41,882 nt of DNA, from the NCBI GenBank assembly GCA_040755095.1, contig JBFMBH010000015.1:1-41882 (forward strand). Direction: 5' to 3'. Each line of letters starts with the position of its first letter. The stretch's first letter is position 1. A program made the position numbers and the translations under genes. This DNA comes from Thermodesulfobacteriota bacterium. GTDB lineage: Bacteria > Desulfobacterota > Desulfobulbia > Desulfobulbales > JBFMBH01. This document shows positions 3,699 to 16,610 of the stretch, piece by piece. The notes under the pieces are model-generated. The model searched no databases. It saw only the letters and a list, made by a program, of their open reading frames with translations, and was not told where the DNA came from.

Positions 3699-3822
3699 GA
3701 CTCCTTGCCGGCATGACGGGGCACAGCCCCGGCTCGGTTGCGAGCAGCCTAGCGCAAAAGGCGGGTGCACGTCAAAGAACCTTTTTGCGAGCCCGCTTGC
3801 GGCTGGCCCAGGGGCGAGCGCC

Positions 3823-3851
3823 TTGCTGGCGGCGGGCCGATCCGCTACAAT
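3823..3851 (+). promoter_or_regulatory. Predicted sigma70-type promoter of glnS
   Basis: TTGCTG (3823-3828), a 17-nt spacer and TACAAT (3846-3851). It lies about 55 nt upstream of the glnS ATG and fits the consensus well. No transcript data were available. Confidence 0.6.
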
Positions 3852-3906
3852 GCCGCCAGCCGCCGTCCGGCGGTCTTGGTTCGACCCTATCCCCAGGAGG
3901 GCTGTT

Positions 3907-5613
3907 ATGAGCGAGCGCGAGCTGTCCCCGGCGGCCAATTTCATCGCCCAGATCGTGGCCGGCGACGTGGCGGCAGGCAAAAACGGCGGCCGGGTGGTCA
4001 CCCGCTTCCCGCCGGAGCCCAACGGCTATCTGCACATCGGCCACGCCAAGTCCATCTGCCTCAACTTCGGCCTGGCCCAGGCCTTCGGCGGCCGCTGCCA
4101 TCTGCGGTTCGACGACACCAACCCCACCAAGGAGGAGCAGGAGTACGTGGAGTCCATCCAGGAGGACGTGGCCTGGCTGGGCTTCTCCTGGGGCGAGCAT
4201 CGCTATTTCGCCTCGGACTACTTCGAGGAGCTGTACCGCTACGCCGTGCTCCTCATCGAGGCCGGCAAGGCCTACGTCTGCTCACTTTCCGCCGACGAGA
4301 TCCGGGAATTCCGGGGCACCCTCACCGAGCCGGGCCGGGAGAGCCCCTACCGGAACCGCTCCGTGGCCGAGAGCCTGGACCTTTTTACCCGGATGCGGGC
4401 CGGTGCGTTTCCCACCGGCAGCCATGTGCTGCGGGCCAAGATCGACATGGCCTCCGGCAACCTCAACATGCGGGATCCGGTCATCTACCGGATCCTGCAC
4501 GCCAGCCACCACCGCACCGGCGATGCCTGGTGCATCTACCCCATGTACGACTTCGCCCACTGTCTGTCCGACGCCATCGAGGGCATCACCCATTCCATCT
4601 GCACCCTGGAATTCGAAGATCACCGGCCGCTCTACGACTGGATTCTGGACCAGCTGCCCGTGCCGTGCCATCCCCAGCAGATCGAGTTTGCCCGCCTGAA
4701 CCTGACCTATACGGTGATGAGCAAAAGAAAGCTCCTGCGTCTGGTCGGCGACGGCCATGTGGCCGGCTGGGACGATCCCCGGCTGCCCACCATCTCCGGG
4801 CTGCGGCGGCGGGGCTATCCGCCGGCGGCCATCCGCGCCTTTTGCGAGCGGATCGGCGTGGCGAAGAAGGACTCCATGGTCGATCTGGCCCTCCTGGAGC
4901 ACTGCGTCCGGGAGGAGCTCAACCGCACCGCCCCCCGGGCGATGGCGGTCTTAAGGCCGGTCAGGGTCGTCATCGAGAACTATCCGGAGGGCCAGGTGGA
5001 GGAACTGGCAGCGGTCAACAACCCGGAGGATCCGGCGGCCGGCAGCCGCACGGTGCCCTTCTCCCGCACCCTCTACCTGGAGGCCGAGGACTTCATGGAG
5101 GAGCCGCCCAAGGATTTCTTCCGTCTCGCCCCGGGCCGGGAGGTGCGGCTGCGCTGGGCCTACTTCATCCGTTGTGTGGGCGTGGTCAAGGATCCGGCGA
5201 CCGGGGCGGTGGTGGAGCTGCGCTGCACCTATGACCCGGAGACCCGGGGGGGCAATGCCCCGGATGGCCGCAAGGTGAAGGCCACCCTGCACTGGGTGTC
5301 GGCGGATCAGGCGGTGCCGGCGCAGGTACGGCTCTACGACACCCTGTGCCGGGTCGAGAATCCGGCCGCCGCCGGCGACGGCACCGACTTCACCAGCCTG
5401 GTCAACCCCCGCTCCCTGGAGGTCCTGGACGGCTGCCGGGTGGAGCCCAGCCTGGCCGCCGCAGTCCCGGGCAGCCGCTGGCAGTTCGAGCGCCTGGGCT
5501 ATTTTTGCGCCGACCGCCGGGACAGCCGGCCGGGTGCCCTGGTCTTCAACCGCACGGTCACCCTGCGGGATCCCTGGGCGAAGATCCAGAAGAAGGGAAG
5601 AACCGCAGAATAA
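3907..5613 (+). CDS. glnS: Glutaminyl-tRNA synthetase
   Basis: A class I aminoacyl-tRNA synthetase of 568 residues that charges tRNA-Gln with glutamine. The HIGH signature is in '[14 protein letters not shown]' (residues 37-50) and the KMSKS-type loop is 'VMSKRKL' near residue 270. The substrate-pocket segment '[20 protein letters not shown]' and the C-terminal two-barrel anticodon-binding domain are complete, ending in '[11 protein letters not shown]'. Length equals the bacterial GlnRS norm. The start was set at 3907 because AGGAGG sits 6 nt upstream; an in-frame extension to 3607 would run across the promoter. Having GlnRS suggests direct glutaminylation, as in gammaproteobacteria and many Desulfobacterota, though the amidotransferase route cannot be excluded from this window. 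Confidence 0.97.
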
Positions 5614-5705: not shown

Positions 5706-7609
5706 ATATTCGACATTCGTCCCTCCCGGGGCAGCAGCACGGTGAAGGTGGCGCCCTGGCCAGGCGTTGATTCCACCTCGATGCGGCCGCCGTGGCGTTG
5801 GATGATGCCGTAGCTCACCGACAGGCCCAGGCCGGTGCCTTTCACCGCCGGCTTGGTGGAGAAGAACGGCTCGAAGATCCGGTGCTGGTCCTCGCTCCTT
5901 ATGCCCCGGCCGTTGTCGGTGAAGGTGACTGCCACAAACGCCCCCCGGGTCTCGGCCCGGATGGCGATCCGACCATTCCCCTCGCAGGCATCCACCGCGT
6001 TGTTGAGGAGGTTGAGGAAGACCTGCTGCAGCTGATCGGCTACCGCCGGCACGGCCGGCAGATCGGCAGGGACGTCGCACGCCACCTGGATGCCGTGCCG
6101 CTTGAGATCCGCCCGGTACAGGCCCAGAAGCCCTTCCAGGAGCGGCGGCAGGGAGACCAGGGCCAGACGCCCCGAGCTGGGGCGGTGGAAGTCCTGGACG
6201 TCTTGCACGAGCTTGCGCATCCGCTCGCACTCCTTGAGGGCCATGGCCACCAGCTCGGCGTCCTCCGGCTCCAGCACCGCCCGCCGCTGGATGCCCCGGA
6301 TCACCCCCATCACCCCCTGGAGCGGATTGTTGAACTCGTGGGCGAAGGAGGCGGCGAGCCGGCCCACCGCGGCCAGCTTCTCGGCATGGAGGAGCTGGCG
6401 GCAGGTGGTCTCCAGGGCCTCGGTCCGCTCCTGGACCATGACCTCCAGCTCGGCGTGGGAGCGCTGCAGGGCGGCCTCCGCCTCCTTGCGCTCCGTGATG
6501 TCGTAGGCGATCTCCAGGCGTACCAGCCGGCCGTCCAGCCAGGGGATGACCCGGTCCTGGGCGTCATACCAGCGGCCGTTGACGGAATTCCTGACCTCCC
6601 AGCGCAGGACCCCGGCCGGCCGGCCTTCGCTGTCCAGCAGGCGGTCGTTGGTGCAGAACGGGCAGGGGCCGCTTTGGCCGGCCTGCAGGACCTCCCAGCA
6701 GCGGCGTCCGGCCGGTTCGCCGAACCGGGCCTGCAGGTACCGGTTGGCGAAGAGCAGCCGATGATCCTGCATGTCCGCCACGTAAACGAGTGCCTCCAGG
6801 CTGTTGAGGACGGTGAGCAGACATTCCTGGGAGGCGGCCAGGGCGCCTTGCACGGCGGTCCGGCGGAGGATCTCGGCGCTGGTCTCCTGGCGCATGGCGT
6901 TGACGGCCTCCAGGAGCGCATCCAGCTCGTCGGGCTCGGAAGGCGCGCCTGGCCGCCGCAGGGTCAACGGCCGGGACAGACTGGCCACCCCGGTCTGCCG
7001 GGCCTGGCCGGCCAGCTCCTCCAGGTGTCGCCCCACCAGGCGGTGGTGGAGGACAAAGACCAGGGTCGCCACGCACAGGACCAGAACCCCGTTGCTGGCG
7101 GCGATCTCCAGGGCCCGGGTCAGGGACAGGTGCACCACCTCTTCCAGATCCGCCTCCACCACCAGACGGCCCAGGGGCACCACGTGGTCCCGGTACGGGT
7201 AGGAGAGGGGATATTCCCGGCGCAGGACCCGGCCGGCGGGGCGCGAGCCCACCGCCAGGACGGCCGCGTCCGAGTCGCCGGTCAGCTCCAGATAGCGCAG
7301 ATGGGGACTGGCCAGGAGGCCCTCCATCTGGGCCTGCAGGAGCTGCCGGTTGGACAGCCACAGGGAGGTGCTCATGGCCGGGGCGTGCACCAGGCGGATT
7401 TCTTCCAGATGCTCCTGCACCCGGCGGATGCCGGCCCGGATATCCATGGCCACGTGCACGGCGGACAGGGCAGAGGTGAGAGCCAGGCTGGCCAGGAGGA
7501 TCTGCCGGAGGAGGCGGCCGGCCAGACGGCGGGGGTGGCGGCTGCCAGGGGCCTGGCTCACGGGACTGGTGGGGCTCGCTGCCATCGTCTCCGGCATCTC
7601 CCGGCCCAT
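5666..7609 (-). CDS. Membrane sensor histidine kinase with CPFC-type PAS domain
   Basis: A 647-residue kinase without a receiver. The N-terminus is Arg-rich, followed by a membrane segment ('ILLASLALTSALSAVHVAM', about residues 36-54), an extracytoplasmic sensor of about 130 residues, and a second membrane segment ('NGVLVLCVATLVFVLHH'). A HAMP-like or linker region precedes a PAS domain carrying 'GPCPFCTND'. A coiled coil leads to HisKA ('ASFAHEFNNPLQGVMG') and a complete HATPase domain ('NLLNNAVDAC', 'TDNGRGI', 'FEPFFSTK', 'GTGLGLSVSYGI'). The last residues come from an interspersed repeat, so the C-terminus is probably extended. The start is uncertain: ATGs at 7609, 7597 and 7585 are all possible and none has a clear ribosome site. 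The signal is unknown. Confidence 0.88.
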   Translation of the reverse strand: MGREMPETMAASPTSPVSQAPGSRHPRRLAGRLLRQILLASLALTSALSAVHVAMDIRAGIRRVQEHLEEIRLVHAPAMSTSLWLSNRQLLQAQMEGLLASPHLRYLELTGDSDAAVLAVGSRPAGRVLRREYPLSYPYRDHVVPLGRLVVEADLEEVVHLSLTRALEIAASNGVLVLCVATLVFVLHHRLVGRHLEELAGQARQTGVASLSRPLTLRRPGAPSEPDELDALLEAVNAMRQETSAEILRRTAVQGALAASQECLLTVLNSLEALVYVADMQDHRLLFANRYLQARFGEPAGRRCWEVLQAGQSGPCPFCTNDRLLDSEGRPAGVLRWEVRNSVNGRWYDAQDRVIPWLDGRLVRLEIAYDITERKEAEAALQRSHAELEVMVQERTEALETTCRQLLHAEKLAAVGRLAASFAHEFNNPLQGVMGVIRGIQRRAVLEPEDAELVAMALKECERMRKLVQDVQDFHRPSSGRLALVSLPPLLEGLLGLYRADLKRHGIQVACDVPADLPAVPAVADQLQQVFLNLLNNAVDACEGNGRIAIRAETRGAFVAVTFTDNGRGIRSEDQHRIFEPFFSTKPAVKGTGLGLSVSYGIIQRHGGRIEVESTPGQGATFTVLLPREGRMSNIEQGISNLEGTGS

Positions 7610-10127: not shown

Positions 10128-10574
10128 ATGGCCCCATACCGAGTTTCGGCAGCCGAAAAGGAGGCGATCGTTGCGTCCATCCGCGCGGTTTTGCTCCAGG
10201 AGCAGTGTGTCGTGGGACTCCTCTTCGGCTCCTTTCTCACCGGCGACGAGCTCAGGGATAATGACCTGTGTGTGGCCTGGGACCAGGCGCCGGCGGCCGA
10301 CTCCACAAGGACGTCCGAACTGGCGGCGGTCCTGGAAGCCGCGCTCCCCTTCCGGTTCGATGTCGTGCCCCTGAACGTTGAGGACGTGCTCCTGCGCGCC
10401 TCCATCGCTACCCGCTTCCAGCCCATCGTCGATGTGCGTCCTGATCTGATCGATGCCTTTGTCTTCGAGGCCTGGATCGACATCCAGGACTTCCGTCCCA
10501 GGATTGAGGCCTTCTATGCCGAACGTTTCGGGGTTGAACAAGGACAAGCTGCTGCGGCTTTCCGGGACTCTTGA
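10128..10574 (+). CDS. MNT-type nucleotidyltransferase (HEPN/MNT module)
   Basis: A 148-residue minimal nucleotidyltransferase. The diagnostic pattern is visible: 'LFGSFLTG' (the GS motif) followed by 'DNDLCVAW', giving the D-x-D metal ligands, and a third acidic strand at 'RFDVVPLN'. In characterised HEPN/MNT pairs the MNT protein AMPylates and neutralises the HEPN RNase. The ATG at 10128 is preferred over 10107 because GGGAGGAG stands at 10118-10124. The next ORF, the HEPN partner, begins inside this gene (10516) in another frame, giving a 59-nt overlap that indicates tight coupling. This gene looks intact although its partner is truncated. Confidence 0.75.
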   Translation: MAPYRVSAAEKEAIVASIRAVLLQEQCVVGLLFGSFLTGDELRDNDLCVAWDQAPAADSTRTSELAAVLEAALPFRFDVVPLNVEDVLLRASIATRFQPIVDVRPDLIDAFVFEAWIDIQDFRPRIEAFYAERFGVEQGQAAAAFRDS

Positions 10575-10899
10575 CGAGGCCTTGGGGGAGCTGGCCGAAA
10601 TAGCCAGGATCGAGAAGAAGGCCGTGCTGGCATCCCGGGACCGGTTTGCCCTGGAGGATCTCTGGTACCGCGTGGCCATGGCCACCATCGACCTCTGCTT
10701 CCATCTGGTGGCCAAAGGCTACGGCAAGGTTCCTGGCAGCTACCGGCCGGTGCCGCCTATCAGGGCAGCAGGTGGGCCCAGCATTTCGCCTTCTTCCGCT
10801 TCGATCTGGGCGACTCCCGGATCCTGCCCACGGTCTATGCCTACAACAAAGACGCCGGCTGCTGGGATCCGCAGCCGGGCCCTTCCAAGGATCTGGTGA
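10516..10899 (+). pseudogene. HEPN-domain (HepT-like) protein, C-terminally truncated
   Basis: The first ~75 residues look like a HEPN toxin-type helical domain: 'LDEALGELAEIARIEKKAVLASRDRFALEDLWYRVAMATIDLCFHLVAKGYGKVPGSY'. This is the usual N-terminal two-helix half found beside MNT proteins. After about 10740 the frame turns into Pro/Ser/Ala-rich text typical of an out-of-frame read, while a different frame becomes protein-like. The catalytic R-x4-6-H motif of HEPN RNases, which lies in the C-terminal half, is therefore missing. I read this as a HEPN gene cut by a deletion or recombination joint near 10740. The module would then be an antitoxin without an active toxin. Confidence 0.55.
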
Positions 10900-11517
10900 C
10901 CCGGCTGCCGGAAAGGCCCAGGCGCACAACCGTCACCCATGTGCCAGCCACCGGTTTTGATGAGGTCATCAAGAAGAACATCCGTGAGGCCCTGGCAGAG
11001 CAGGAGCAGACTACCCTGGCGAATCTCCTGTGTCGGGAAGCCGAGCGGGACGGGGCTTCCCTGGGCACCGGCGATCTGGCCGACCTGCTCTGTGCGCCCG
11101 GGCAGGCCCTGGACCGGGCGATTGCCTGGCTCACCCTGACGGCCCGGGAACGGTTGAAGGGGCTACAGAGTCGGGAGCCCGGCGCAGTCCCGGCCTGGCG
11201 GCAGCAGCTGCGGGAGGTGCTGGGCTGGCTCGTGTTGCGGGCGGTGGCTCCCGACTGGCTTGCCACCCATCAGGCGGCCTTGCAGCGGGCTGGCGGTGTG
11301 CGGGTGGAGGTGTTTCTCCGGAAGCCCAGCTGTATCGAGGTGATGGTGGCGCGGCTGGAAACCAGGGCCGCTTGCTTCCGGACCGTTGCCGACGACGGCA
11401 GTCGGTTGGGGGAGTGTGCCATCTCCCTGGGCGGCGAGGCAGATCCCGAGCCCGGGGCCACCCTCCAGGAGGCCTACAAGGCCATCTGGCGGGTGGTGGT
11501 CCGTCGGGCCGTGCCCG
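10737..11517 (+). pseudogene. Unidentified protein fragment fused between HEPN and MoxR remnants
   Basis: In this frame the text is protein-like from about 10758 ('AYQGSRWAQHFAFFRFDLGDS') through 'THVPATGFDEVIKKNIREALAEQEQTTLANLLCREAE' to 'EAYKAIWRVVVRRAVPEP' near 11517. It has no start codon that fits its beginning; a GTG at 10896 is the first internal candidate. Both ends coincide with frame changes into other families, so it appears to be an internal piece of a larger gene. I do not recognise the family. Its position just before MoxR suggests the effector or adaptor partner of a MoxR/vWA conflict system, which is inference. Confidence 0.4.
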
Positions 11518-12369
11518 AGCCAGCTGGCCCGGGCCGCGGCCCAGCAGATGGGGCGCCTGTTCGTGGCCGAGGTGGTGCATGCCCGCAGCGAGAGCCAGGA
11601 CCTGCAATGGCATTTCGACGCCATCGGCCGGCTGGGGGATGCCCAGGCCCTGGGGGCGGCATGCCGCCCCGGGCTGGAGGTGGACGTGAAGGCGATGCTG
11701 GCCCCGGCACAGTATCTCGCTCCAGGCGCGCTGTGGTGGGTGTTCGACTGGCAGGGTGCCCTGGGCCAGGCCGCAAACTGCAAGTGCAAGCACCGGCAGC
11801 CGGTACCGCCTCTTGGCTGGGAGCCGGGCAAGGGCAGCGTGCTTCTCATCGACGAGATCGACAAGGCCGAGGCGGATCTGCCCAACGGCCTCCTGGAGAC
11901 CCTGGGCAACGGCGGCTTTGCCGTTCCCTACCTGGACGAGCCGGTGGCAATCCCGGAAGGGGTGCCGTCGCCCCTGGTGGTCATCACCACCAACGAGGAG
12001 CGGGAGCTGCCGGCTGCCTTTGTTCGCCGCTGCCTGGTGCTGCACCTGCGGCTGCCGGACGGCGATCCCGCCCGCCGCGATCAGCCGGAAGCGGTGCGCC
12101 GGCAGGACCTGGTGGACTGGCTGCTGGCTCGGGGAAAGGACCATTTCGGCCAGCGGATTGACTGCGAGGTGCTGGAGCAGGCCGCCCAGCAGCTCTGGAC
12201 CGACCGCCAACAGGCCCGGAATCTCGGGCTCTCTCCGCCCGGCCAGGCGGAGTACCTGGACCTGCTGCGGGCCCTGGACAGGCTGGCCCACGCTGATGCC
12301 GCCGGTCAGAAGGACCTTCTTGTCCGCATCCAGGGCTTCGCCCTGCGCAAGTTCGCCGGCCTGTGCTGA
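11518..12369 (+). pseudogene. MoxR-type AAA+ ATPase lacking its Walker A region
   Basis: From 'SQLARAAAQQMGRLFVAEVVHARSESQDLQWHFDAIGRLGDAQA' onward this is a MoxR-like AAA+ ATPase of the class found in MoxR/vWA conflict systems. Walker B and its extension are clear ('GSVLLIDEIDKAEADLPNGLLE'). The sensor 1 segment 'PLVVITTNEERELPAAFVRRC' and the C-terminal lid are also present. In relatives, 'GxxGxGK' immediately precedes '(S/T)QLARA', but here the upstream frame is unrelated text ('SVGPCP'). The P-loop and everything N-terminal to it are gone, so ATP binding should be lost. The frame is open from 11386, but 11386-11517 is not protein-like. The stop overlaps the GTG start of the next gene by 7 nt. 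Confidence 0.65.
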
Positions 12370-15300
12370 GCCAGCCCCCGCTGCCGGACCATCCCTTGCC
12401 CACGGCCGAACGGCTGCGGCGCGCCGCCGTCTCCCGGGCAGAGCTGCTCTACTTCGCCGACGCCAGCGGTCCGGAGGCCTTGCGCCGGGCCGCGGAAATC
12501 TTCGGCTTCCGGGCGCCGGTGGAGGAAGAGGAGGAGACGGCCCCGCCAGCTGCTGACCGCTCGCCGAGGGTATCTCCGACTCCAGCCCCCGCGCCGGTCC
12601 AGGCTCCGGAAACAGCGATTCCCGTTGCGGCTGCGCCGTACCTGCGGCTCTGGCGCCGCCAGCGGGTCCCGGACCAGGAGCGGCGCACCGAGGCGCCGGC
12701 CCGGCTTGCCGCCACGCCGCCCCTCAGCCCCGGGTCCGGCCCGCGGGACCTGCCGCCGGACCCGCCCCCCCTCACCCCCTGGCGGCGGCTCTGGCCCTTC
12801 CTGCGGCTGGCCCTGGGCAGCTGCGGTCCGGGCCGCGCCCTGGATATCCCCCGGCTGGTGGCCGATCTCAGCCAGGGCCGCACCTGCCGCCAGCTGCCCC
12901 GGAAGGTCCGCCGCTCCTGGGCGCCTTTGGCCCAGGTCATCGTGGACCAGGATCTCGGCCTCTTCCCTTTCTGGCAGGATTGCGAAGCTGGTGGCCGGCC
13001 TGCGGGGCCTCAGGGGCAGCTCCGGTCTGTCGGTGGTGGGCTTTCCCGAGGGGCCGGACCGGGAGGCCATTCCCTGGGCGCGGGACCGGGAACGGGCGCG
13101 GCGGCGCCGGCCGGAGCCGTACCGCCTGCCCGATCCCGGCACCCCGATCCTCATCCTCGGCGACTGCGGCTGCCTGGCCAAGAGGCCCGGCCCCTGGCTG
13201 GCCTTTGGCCGCCGGCTCAAGGCGGCCGGCTTCCGGCCGGTAGCCCTGATGCCCTGTCCGGCCCGTTACTGGGACCAGGAGCTGGGCCAGCTCTTCCTGC
13301 CGGTGCTGTGGGACCGCCAGGCGCGGCTGCCCCGCTGGCTGGACGCCGGCCAGCCGCGGCCCGAGGCTGCCGCCCCGGATCCGGGCCTGGAGCAGCTCCT
13401 GCGCCTGGTGGCCTGGGCGGTGCGGGTGGAGCCCGGCCTCTTGCGGGCGCTCCGCTTCCGCCTCGGCGCCAGCAGGGCCGACGTGGGCACCGAGGCCGCG
13501 GTGTGGCGGCATCCGGATGTCCGGGATGACGGCCCGACCTGCACCATCCGGCCGGAGCGCCTGGCGGCCATCCGCCAGCAGGCGGTCAAGGAGCTGCAAG
13601 AAGGAGGGCCGGAGGTTCAGGCCCTTTACGCTGACGCGCACCGCTTGCTCACTGCCTTCCACCAGGGGGCGCATCCCACCATCCAGGCCCTGGAGGAGAT
13701 CGTGCGCGCCCAGGCCCTGGCCGTGCCCCCCGCCCCCGAGGCCCTGCACCGCCTGTGGCAGGTGGCAGCCACCCTGGACCGGCCCGGGGGGTATCCCTAT
13801 CTGGCTCGGCTGCAAGCCTGGGTGCTGCGCATGCAGGAGCGTCTGGAGCCGGCCTTCTGGGGCAGTGACACCGCCGAGCCGGTGGCTATCGCCCTCGCCA
13901 CGGTGAAGACGGCCTTGGCAAGGCGCCAGATCGAGATTGCCCTTCCGCCTGGCTTTGACATCAAGCGAGTGCTCTGGGCCCTCGGTGCCACAGGGCTCCA
14001 GTCCTACGAGCTGCGCCAGGAGGTGACCCCCCAGGGCGAGCGGCGGCTGGTGCTCACCCCCCCGGGACCGCCGGCAACCGATGGCCCGTCGGGTCGTGGG
14101 AACATCCTGGTGGCGCCCCTGTCCCTGGCTGCCTCCAGCCTGGAGTGGCAGCATCAGGATGACGCCGGCCCGGCCGGCCCCGTCCAGGTGCTCGATATCC
14201 GGCAGGAGCAGGCCATCCCGGTGCCGCCAGCCGGCCGCCTCCGGATCGACAGCGACTACGAGCACCTGGAGATCGATCTCCTGGACAAGCCCGCCTGGGC
14301 GCTCCGCATCGAGCAGGGCCGCAGCCCAACCGGCGAGGACCGGCTGATCCTCACCCCCCGGGACCGCCCCGACCGTCCCCTGTGGTGGCTGCCACCGGCG
14401 GACTATCCTGTCCTGGACCGAGCCAACCGGGTAGTGGGTCAGCTGCCGATCACCGAAGGCCGCTGGGTCAGTTCTGAGACGTACCAGGAGCTGCGGGGCG
14501 TTGGCCTGCGCCAACCCGACTGGGCCCAGGCCATCGGCCAGGACCAGTACGGCCTCTTTGCCGATTGGGTGTACCAAGGCGTCACCCAACGCTTCCGCTG
14601 GATCCCGCCCGGGCAGTTCCGGATGGGCTCACCGGAGGATGAGCCGGAGCGCTGGCAGGACGAAGGCCCCCGGCACGAGGTCTTGCTCACAGAGGGCCTC
14701 TGGCTGGCGGACACCGCCTGCACCCAGGCCATGTGGCAGACGGTGATGGGGAAGAACCCGAGTCGTTTCCAGGGCGCCGACCGGCCGGTGGAAAAGGTGA
14801 GCTGGAATGACGTGCAGCGGTTCCTGGAGCGGATCAACAGGGAGTGGCCGGGGTTGGAGCTGCGGCTACCCTCCGAGGCGGAGTGGGAGTATGCCTGCCG
14901 GGCCGGGACCGAGACGCCCTTTCCCTTCGGGACCACCATCACCCCGGAGCAGGTGAACTACGACGGCAACCGCCCGTATGCAGGGGGCGAGAAGGGGCTG
15001 TACCGGCAGGAGACCGTGGCGGTGCAGGCCCTGCCCGCCAACGCCTGGGGGCTCTACCAGATGCACGGCAATGTCTGGGAATGGTGTGCCGACTGGTACG
15101 GAGCCTATCCGGCCGGGCCGGTGATCGACCCCGCGGGGCCGGAACGAGGCACCGAGCGGGTGCTCCGTGGCGGCTGCTGGATCTTCTACGCCAGGAGGTG
15201 CCGTTCGGCCCTCCGGTACTGGTTCGGGCCCGGCAGCCGCTTCGTCATTACCGGCTTCCGCCTTGCCCGAGGTCAAACAGGGAAGCAGGCAGGGCGGTAG
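12363..15300 (+). CDS. vWA-like (SAV_2336-type) / FGE-fold protein, frameshifted, putative DGR target
   Basis: Two ORFs (12363 to about 12981, then about 12982-15300) read as one protein of roughly 978 residues if one base is skipped at 'caggat|t|gcgaag'. The N-terminus carries the usual helical start and a Pro-rich linker. Next comes a SAV_2336-like segment with a vWA-type fold: 'AQVIVDQDLGLFPFWQD' + 'AKLVAGLRGL', 'TPILILGDCGCLAKRPGPWLAFGRRL' and 'GFRPVALMPCPARYWDQ'. The last ~240 residues are a formylglycine-generating-enzyme-fold (SUMF1/EgtB) domain: 'FRMGSPEDEPERWQDEGPRHEV', 'LPSEAEWEYACRAGTE', '[12 protein letters not shown]', 'RVLRGGCW' and 'GFRLAR'. Codons 15175-15261 resemble a DGR variable region. 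It is coupled to MoxR by overlap. The frameshift could be decay or a sequencing error. Confidence 0.75.
15170..15264 (+). other. Putative DGR variable region in the FGE-fold C-terminus
   Basis: The segment between 'RVLRGG' and 'GFRLAR' has the fixed framework of DGR-diversified FGE folds: W, AR, CRSA, R, P, R, GFR. The positions that are usually Asn (AAC/AAY) in DGR template repeats are occupied by mixed residues: I F Y, L, Y W F, G S, F V I T. Most of these codons keep a C or T third base (atc ttc tac, ctc, tac, ttc, ggc agc, ttc gtc att acc), as expected from adenine mutagenesis of AAC. No reverse transcriptase or template repeat was found in the window. Confidence 0.45.
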
Positions 15301-15399
15301 CCGGGGGCGCAGGGCCGCCGGACAGCCGCCGTCGCGGAGCAGGCGGCGGTCAGGCGGGCCGGCGACCCCGGCGGAGCGGCTGGGCACGGAGGGCTTCGC
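15301..15399. other. Non-coding stretch between the FGE gene and the interspersed repeat
   Basis: Very GC-rich. It begins 'cggtagccgggggcgcag', which shares CGGTAGCCGGGGG with 15625-15636. I see no gene here. Confidence 0.4.
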
Positions 15400-15597
15400 G
15401 CGGGGCGCACCCGAATGGGTGCAACGCCGGAAGCTGGCCATGGTGGCCTCCCATAAGTCCCATAGGTCCTGTAAGTCCCATGGGTCCAAGAGAGCCATGG
15501 GAGCTATGGGAATCATGGGATTTGTGGATTGCCATGCGCGGGGCGCACCCGAAGGGGTACCATGCCGGAAGTCCGCCCTGAAGGCCGTTGTTTCTTG
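15400..15597 (+). repeat. Interspersed repeat, copy A (headers plus 9-bp array)
   Basis: The element has two 34-bp headers (15400-15433 and 15538-15571), each starting GCGGGGCGCACCC and ending CCGGAAG. The first header contains a GCACCC-GAAT-GGGTGC hairpin. Between them lies 'ctggccatggtggcctc', then four 9-mers CCCATAAGT, CCCATAGGT, CCTGTAAGT, CCCATGGGT (15450-15485), then an imperfect 'catggga' stretch ending 'atgggatttgtgg'. After the second header comes 'tccgccctgaaggccgttgtttc'. An inverted copy with the same order lies at 29698-29860, so this is a dispersed family. Confidence 0.8.
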
Positions 15598-15628
15598 AGA
15601 GCCTCGCGCAGCGAGAGCAGATACGGTA

Positions 15629-15650: not shown

Positions 15651-15788
15651 AGGAGGCGCCGGCGACAACCTCGACCGCCGCACCCCCCCGGTGCCGGACA
15701 CACCCCCTTGCGGCCGGACACCCTGGCGGGCATCCGCCGCACAGGCCGAAACCGCGGCGGCTGCCGGGGGGCGTGGCCGGTGCTTCCC

Positions 15789-15810
15789 GGCCGGCCTTGA
15801 AAGGCCGGCC
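15789..15810. repeat. Hairpin, 9-bp stem
   Basis: GGCCGGCCT (15789-15797), loop TGAA, AGGCCGGCC (15802-15810). It stands just upstream of the FGE fragment and may mark the edge of a rearrangement. Confidence 0.6.
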
Positions 15811-15833
15811 AACCACGCTGGGGGGAAGAAGGG

Positions 15834-15968
15834 GCGTTACCGGCAGCAAACCGTGCCAGTGCAGGCCCTGCCCGCCAACGCCTGGGGCCTCTACCAGATG
15901 CACGGCAATGTCTGGGAATGGTGTGCCGACTGGTACGGAGCCTATCCGGCCGGGCCGGTGACCGACCC
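15834..15968 (+). pseudogene. Second FGE-fold fragment (remnant of another target gene)
   Basis: About 135 bp closely matching 14988-15130 of the upstream gene. The shared translation is '[32 protein letters not shown]' followed by 'TDP' in place of 'IDP'. The match begins near 'ggggcgttaccggcag' and stops at 'gaccgaccctaat', just before the place where the variable region would start. It has no start and no downstream half. It is a remnant of a paralogous FGE gene or of a local duplication, cut on both sides and abutting the Uma2 gene tail. Confidence 0.7.
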
Positions 15969-16610
15969 TAATGGGCCGGTGGGGCTCATCCCCACCCGCG
16001 GCCGCTGCGGTGGCCCGGGACAGTGGCTGGCAGCTGTGCCCTCCCCGCGGCCGGCGCAGCACAAGCCCTGGCAGGCCATCAGGACCCCCGGCAGGCGGTC
16101 CTCCAACCAGAGGTTGGCCAGGTCGATGTCGATCTCGGAGAACGGCTCGGCGCGCACCTTGTCGTCTTCGGCAAAGTCGCCAAGGGACAGCCAGCGCCCG
16201 GCTTCGAGCTTGAAGACTTGCAGCAGCCGGTCCCGCGGATCGATCAGCCACAGATACGGAATGCCGTGCCTGGCGTAGCTTCGGGCCTTGGTTATGCGAT
16301 CATGGCGAATACTGCCCGGAGAGAGAATTTCGCATATCCAGTCGGGGAACGGCAATCCAGTTCTGTCCTTTCTCCAGCCGGAGATGTCGGGAGCAAACAG
16401 ATCGTCCTCAAGTCTCACTTCCACTTCCCCGAGGATGATCCAGCCGCCTGGCCCGCCTTGACCGAACCGGTACGGCGGCACCAGGGCGCCACCGAGATTT
16501 GAAGCAGCACCGCAGTCGCTCCCCTGCGGCGCATCTTCCGCTGGCGGCGGGGTCACCAGGATGCGAGCCTGGCAGGGACAATTAACCCAATTCTCACATT
16601 CCCCCTCCAT
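15942..16610 (-). CDS. Uma2-family (DUF820) PD-(D/E)xK endonuclease, N-terminally truncated
   Basis: The core is a Uma2/DUF820 nuclease-like protein: '[29 protein letters not shown]', '[35 protein letters not shown]', then '[17 protein letters not shown]' and '[14 protein letters not shown]'. The nuclease acidic/Lys residues are visible: D in 'APDISGW', E in 'CEILSP' and K in 'ITKARSY'. Relatives have ~30 more residues before the 'ILVTPPPA' strand. Here that part is replaced by '[14 protein letters not shown]', so the 5' end seems lost near 16575. The C-terminus also looks unnatural: past 'LWLEDRLPG' the frame reads antisense through the FGE fragment. It is probably non-functional or altered. 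The family's biological role is unsettled. Confidence 0.6.

Follow-up and report, generated by a model that had tools for sequence, protein, structure and literature searches.

A remote FGE-domain target of an apparently decaying MoxR-linked DGR, very probably rewritten in trans, in a Thermodesulfobacteriota genome

Diversity-generating retroelements (DGRs) are targeted-mutation machines of bacteria, in which the RNA of a template repeat (TR) is copied in an error-prone manner and homing is guided by a constant 3′ end. In the genome of a Thermodesulfobacteriota bacterium (4.5 Mb in 255 contigs, with 3.5% contamination), the C-terminal end of a protein with an FGE-sulfatase domain is encoded by a segment that matches such a TR, which lies beside a reverse transcriptase (RT) gene on another contig, C86. 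The target gene is in the window, by which we mean the whole stretch of 41,882 nucleotides that was analysed (contig C15, positions 1-41882), and the matching segment is very probably a DGR variable region (VR) that was rewritten in trans from C86. Homing in trans is visible here at the level of sequence, as a VR that equals a template on another contig except at one non-adenine site, the putative marker of the homing site. Parts of both loci look broken in this assembly, and the window gene is best read as a remote target, diversified in trans, that belongs to a decaying MoxR/FGE DGR module.

The VR occupies positions 15149-15275 of the window (forward strand, 127 bp) and is the counterpart of the TR at C86:5175-5301. 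Pairwise alignment of the two gives 17 mismatches over 127 bp, 16 of which fall at the 28 template adenines (13 A>T, 2 A>G and 1 A>C; hypergeometric P 5.7e-12), with identity at 98 of 99 non-adenine sites. The first-pass annotation, made from the window alone, had placed a DGR-like hypervariable tail at 15170-15264 and advised searching the genome for an adenine-asymmetric template beside a reverse transcriptase. Both were found, on C86, and the tail is borne out as a VR, at the right location but with a repeat slightly wider than proposed. As that annotation had also noted, no RT or TR was detected in the window, and remnants of RT or HRDC genes, sought within the window, were not found. The mixed residues that it listed at template Asn codons are present, with 8 Asn codons altered, but Ser (S>C, 15175), Arg (R>W, 15220), Glu (E>G, 15226) and Asp (D>V, 15244) codons are altered too; among its variable residues, Ile (15181) and Thr (15250) are unchanged template codons, and the Gly before Ser is constant. 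Read in the frame of the VR, the TR encodes GSWINNARRCRSANRNRNEPGNRNDNTGFRLAR, with 17 variable codons and about 7e13 possible proteins. The single non-adenine mismatch, C>G at 15272, lies at the 3′ homing site, in the constant, IMH-like end of the VR (15252-15275, forward strand), where the VR has G and the TR has C. Because the same contrast, AGCTC in the TR and AGGTC in the VR, is common to VR1 and VR2 of C86 and to the relatives L027, L031, L032, L037 and L078, this mismatch is most simply read as an IMH*/IMH difference, a putative homing-site marker.

Searches of the organism's own genome located RVT_1 in three places, strong matches to the window tail in four places besides itself (three on C86 and a partial FGE copy in the window), and strong matches to the TR repeat only in the three C86 copies and the window. 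On C86, a MoxR-like AAA gene (C86:356-1018), which has its P-loop but a C terminus that is cut off early, is followed by FGE target 1 (C86:1067-3934, with VR1 at 3804-3930), the RT ORF (C86:3977-5143), the 127-bp TR about 30 bp 3′ of it, and FGE target 2 (C86:5415-6548, with VR2 at 6196-6321). The RT ORF scores above the RVT_1 cut-off and has YMDD and LPIGSLTSQ motifs, and PADLOC returned general RT and AAA matches only. Relative to the C86 TR, substitutions at TR adenines make up 13 of 18 in VR1 and 15 of 22 in VR2. The adenine substitutions of VR2 are mostly to G and C (7 G, 6 C, 2 T), and those of VR1 and the window VR together are 23 T, 5 G and 1 C. VR2 also carries a 1-nt deletion exactly at a template adenine, and target 2 therefore runs out of frame. 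Within the RT ORF, the first ~90 residues of an HRDC protein are joined in frame to the RT from about residue 55, and the fused ORF is missing two parts that relatives have, the HRDC domain and about 54 residues at the N terminus of the RT. With these parts missing, the C86 RT may now be inactive. The joint (C86:4260-4300) falls at an LRE-like coding stretch found in both genes, which suggests that the fusion arose by deletion between short homologies.

The MoxR-like AAA gene of the window (11497-12369, forward strand) aligns with residues 68-220 of the C86 MoxR as well as with the MoxR genes of relatives. It lacks its first ~65 residues, including the P-loop, and the residues corresponding to GEPGSGKS of the C86 MoxR are missing; an ORF upstream (10896-12161) had no Pfam match. 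The target gene then runs in two frames. Its N-terminal part (12363-12987, forward strand) is in one frame, with 12420-13067 matching residues 10-229 of C86 target 1, and the second frame (12988-15300, forward strand), with 42% identity to residues 205-955 of target 1, holds the middle region, the FGE domain and the VR. Comparison with C86 target 1 places the frameshift at about 12970-12990, upstream of the FGE-sulfatase domain of C-type lectin fold that bears the VR (14599-15270, forward strand; PF03781, E 1e-44), which is in frame. Directly 3′ of the target stop codon is an imperfect 31-nt inverted repeat (15300-15372, no strand assigned) with arms that are 84% complementary, and no such repeat is present at the C86 VRs. 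Beyond it, a dispersed MITE-like repeat (15399-15601, no strand assigned) occupies the place that HRDC-RT-TR has in relatives of the cassette, and matches at least 49 places across the genome, one of them at C86:7593-7660. This repeat is about 200 nt long and contains inverted repeats as well as a 9-nt tandem (TCCCATAAG-like). A second FGE target survives as a remnant (15739-15979, forward strand) that covers only positions 116-201 of the Pfam FGE profile and ends just before the VR; it has 91% DNA identity to the first window target over 163 nt and might alternatively have arisen by local partial duplication of that target.

Current activity of the DGR is doubtful, given how many of its parts are broken in the assembly. 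The window VR could be a fossil, written when the RT was intact, with nothing diversified now, an explanation that competes with present activity and not with a DGR origin. It would fit the HRDC-RT fusion with its missing parts, the frameshifts in the window target and VR2, the truncation of MoxR at both loci, and the repeat found where RT-TR would be. However, the window VR equals the present TR at all non-adenine sites save the IMH base, the FGE frame is open, the VR interior is free of decay, and intact and broken variants of a DGR locus coexist in one population of published relatives (PMC10907252). We consider the question of a fossil to be evenly balanced. It is rather unlikely that the lesions are instead assembly errors, with both loci intact in the living organism and an active trans DGR. 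Repeats and VRs are difficult to assemble, the assembly is in 255 contigs with 3.5% contamination, and the ORFs are intact in relatives, but five distinct lesions are present, and at some of them the joint shows short homology of the kind seen in real deletions.

The window VR contrasts with its flanks, whose identity is just 72-77%. All 40 non-adenine third-codon positions of the VR are identical to the TR, compared with 109 of 183 (60%) and 120 of 183 (66%) third positions of the flanking FGE core that are identical to the two C86 targets (Fisher P 1.5e-8 and 4e-7, respectively). Because the non-adenine sites of the VR match the TR while the flanks have diverged, the VR appears to have been rewritten from the C86 template after the loci diverged, and its identity is not attributable to shared descent. 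Plain duplication or gene conversion among FGE genes, with mismatches arising by chance, could draw on the paralogy of the FGE cores, which have 72-79% DNA identity, but is highly improbable: the placement of 16 of 17 mismatches at adenines has a chance of about 6e-12, the non-adenine letters of the TR are not reproduced in any other VR, and divergence is much greater in the flanks than in the VR. The restriction to adenines, together with the contrast between VR and flanks, rules out gene conversion without a retroelement. An ordinary FGE-fold enzyme with natural active-site diversity and no DGR, which the Pfam FGE match and the match to solved FGEs (E 1e-24) would favour, has next to no probability, being refuted by the TR with an RT in the genome and lacking, when aligned to the solved FGE 5nxl, both cysteines at the CHESYC positions, a pair that we take to be the copper-binding motif of active FGEs. 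The window FGE domain also matches the structure of TvpA (2y3c), a DGR variable protein, at E 5e-24; in structure models, most of the FGE/VR region is below pLDDT 50.

We assign C15 and C86 to one genome because of their composition (GC 0.693 and 0.691; tetranucleotide r 0.994), the dispersed repeat common to both, and the VR/TR match. The order in which the three VRs were written may also be legible. VR1 and VR2 have letters in common that depart from the present TR (G>C at 80, G>C at 85 and T>C at 101), and at repeat position 103 both differ from the present TR; at all four positions the window VR carries the present TR letters. An older template seems to have given rise to VR1 and VR2, and the present one to the window VR, and because the older template letters shared by the C86 targets are missing from the window VR, it was probably written last. 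Such a readable order of rewriting bears on the upkeep of remote targets and on the decay of DGR modules. We find it improbable that the fusion of half an HRDC protein with the RT on C86 is a working minimal DGR RT, one that carried out the most recent trans rewriting of the window VR and left VR1 and VR2 behind.

In the mechanism that we propose for the trans-diversified target, the RT system of C86 would reverse-transcribe the template RNA to cDNA, with errors at adenines, and the cDNA would replace window positions 15149-15275 in trans, guided by the constant 3′ end with its putative IMH function. Up to 17 codons would be open to rewriting, on the presumed ligand-binding face of the C-terminal FGE/C-type-lectin domain. 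The window locus would be a sister of the C86 module (MoxR, target 1, HRDC-RT-TR, target 2) from which the RT and TR appear to have been lost while the target was retained, and this target would act as a sensor signalling to the MoxR ATPase. Judged from published relatives, the target might well be a sensor and might equally well not be.

The description of the target as a vWA/MoxR conflict gene holds in part. The target does follow a MoxR-like AAA gene at each of the two loci, but both copies of that gene are truncated, with the P-loop missing from the window gene and present in the C86 copy, and Pfam detects no vWA domain in the window target or its homologues. VWA_CoxE has no match in this genome, and no VMAP, which like iSTAND can be the third component of such conflict systems, was found at either locus, the ORF upstream in the window (10896-12161) being without a Pfam match. 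For the homologue L058, the best structure match is TvpA (2y3c; E 5e-6), and weak matches (E 0.01-0.1), which hint at a vWA-like fold, are to chains of the NorQD complex and to an anthrax toxin receptor vWA chain; the matched NorQD chains are probably the vWA protein NorD.

The window and C86 pair clearly exemplifies a known kind of system, with counterparts in Thiohalocapsa, Treponema and cyanobacteria. In Thiohalocapsa PB-PSB1, DGRs 2/4/5 and 8 likewise have a CLec/FGE target beside a MoxR ATPase, and the target of DGR 8, of clade 5A, likewise has an N terminus with no recognised domain (PMC10907252). The RTs of DGRs 4 and 5 are replaced by MITE-like arrays and their VRs equal the DGR 2 TR at all non-adenine sites, a pattern read as activity in trans, and the FGE tail was proposed to form the face with which a sensor, signalling by way of MoxR, binds its ligand (PMC10907252). 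The window locus parallels DGRs 4 and 5 (PMC10907252), with a repeat in the place of the RT and a VR that matches the TR of another locus, but in the present genome even the donor RT looks damaged, and one donor serves one remote target. The TvpA DGR of Treponema denticola shares with the present system an FGE-fold variable protein, remote targets and an IMH/IMH* difference at the 3′ end, and shares with the relatives of C86 an HRDC accessory that overlaps the RT (PMC4891356). In contrast, a MoxR-like gene and an N-terminal region of ~600 residues stand ahead of the FGE domain here, and HRDC and RT, which are separate genes in T. denticola, are fused on C86, apparently by deletion (PMC4891356). 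Cyanobacterial remote variable proteins are also CLec targets paired with a distant TR in the same genome, but have other N-terminal domains (kinases and others), and their TRs were assigned by an identity threshold, whereas the identity here is exact save one non-adenine site (PMC7517822). VMAP/MoxR-vWA ternary conflict systems similarly combine a MoxR ATPase with an FGE-domain protein that is often diversified by a DGR (PMC7159879); at the two loci described here, no VMAP was found and no vWA is detectable by sequence.

A search with the C86 RT identified 58 related loci in gamma- and deltaproteobacteria, Planctomycetota, Verrucomicrobia, Acidobacteriota and others, in genomes none of which is from the same genus or family as the source. 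Scanning for adenine-restricted repeats revealed TR/VR pairs in most of the 58 loci, typically with the TR shortly 3′ of the RT, VR1 before the RT, and often VR2 about 1 kb after it. A separate HRDC protein of ~160 residues precedes the RT and in most cases overlaps it (Pfam HRDC E 3e-17 and 1e-18 in the two relatives tested). Targets in the relatives have 900-1200 residues, with an N-terminal region that is undescribed and an FGE domain at the C terminus, and those loci that extend far enough have a MoxR-like gene upstream. The VR1-HRDC-RT-TR-VR2 cassette of MoxR-linked DGRs therefore spans many phyla; the framework pattern had no match in viral contigs. In 25 VRs of relatives, template adenines are changed to G 212 times, to T 171 times and to C 40 times. 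The RT homologue of L058 (Desulfobacter vibrioformis, 4830-5501) has YMYD instead of YMDD and a shortened N terminus, beside a TR/VR pair, and is probably another dead DGR RT. A second RT of the source genome (C42 locus L025, 8843-10432, minus strand) has 529 residues and a C terminus weakly like MutS domain I. This RT was considered as another DGR and set aside after a search of 20 kb revealed no template repeat. It adjoins a DUF1566/Lcl_C, PEP-CTERM gene with a VR-like end (10475-11308, minus strand), and the start of this DUF1566-like gene is fused to a 300-nt duplicated segment (98%).
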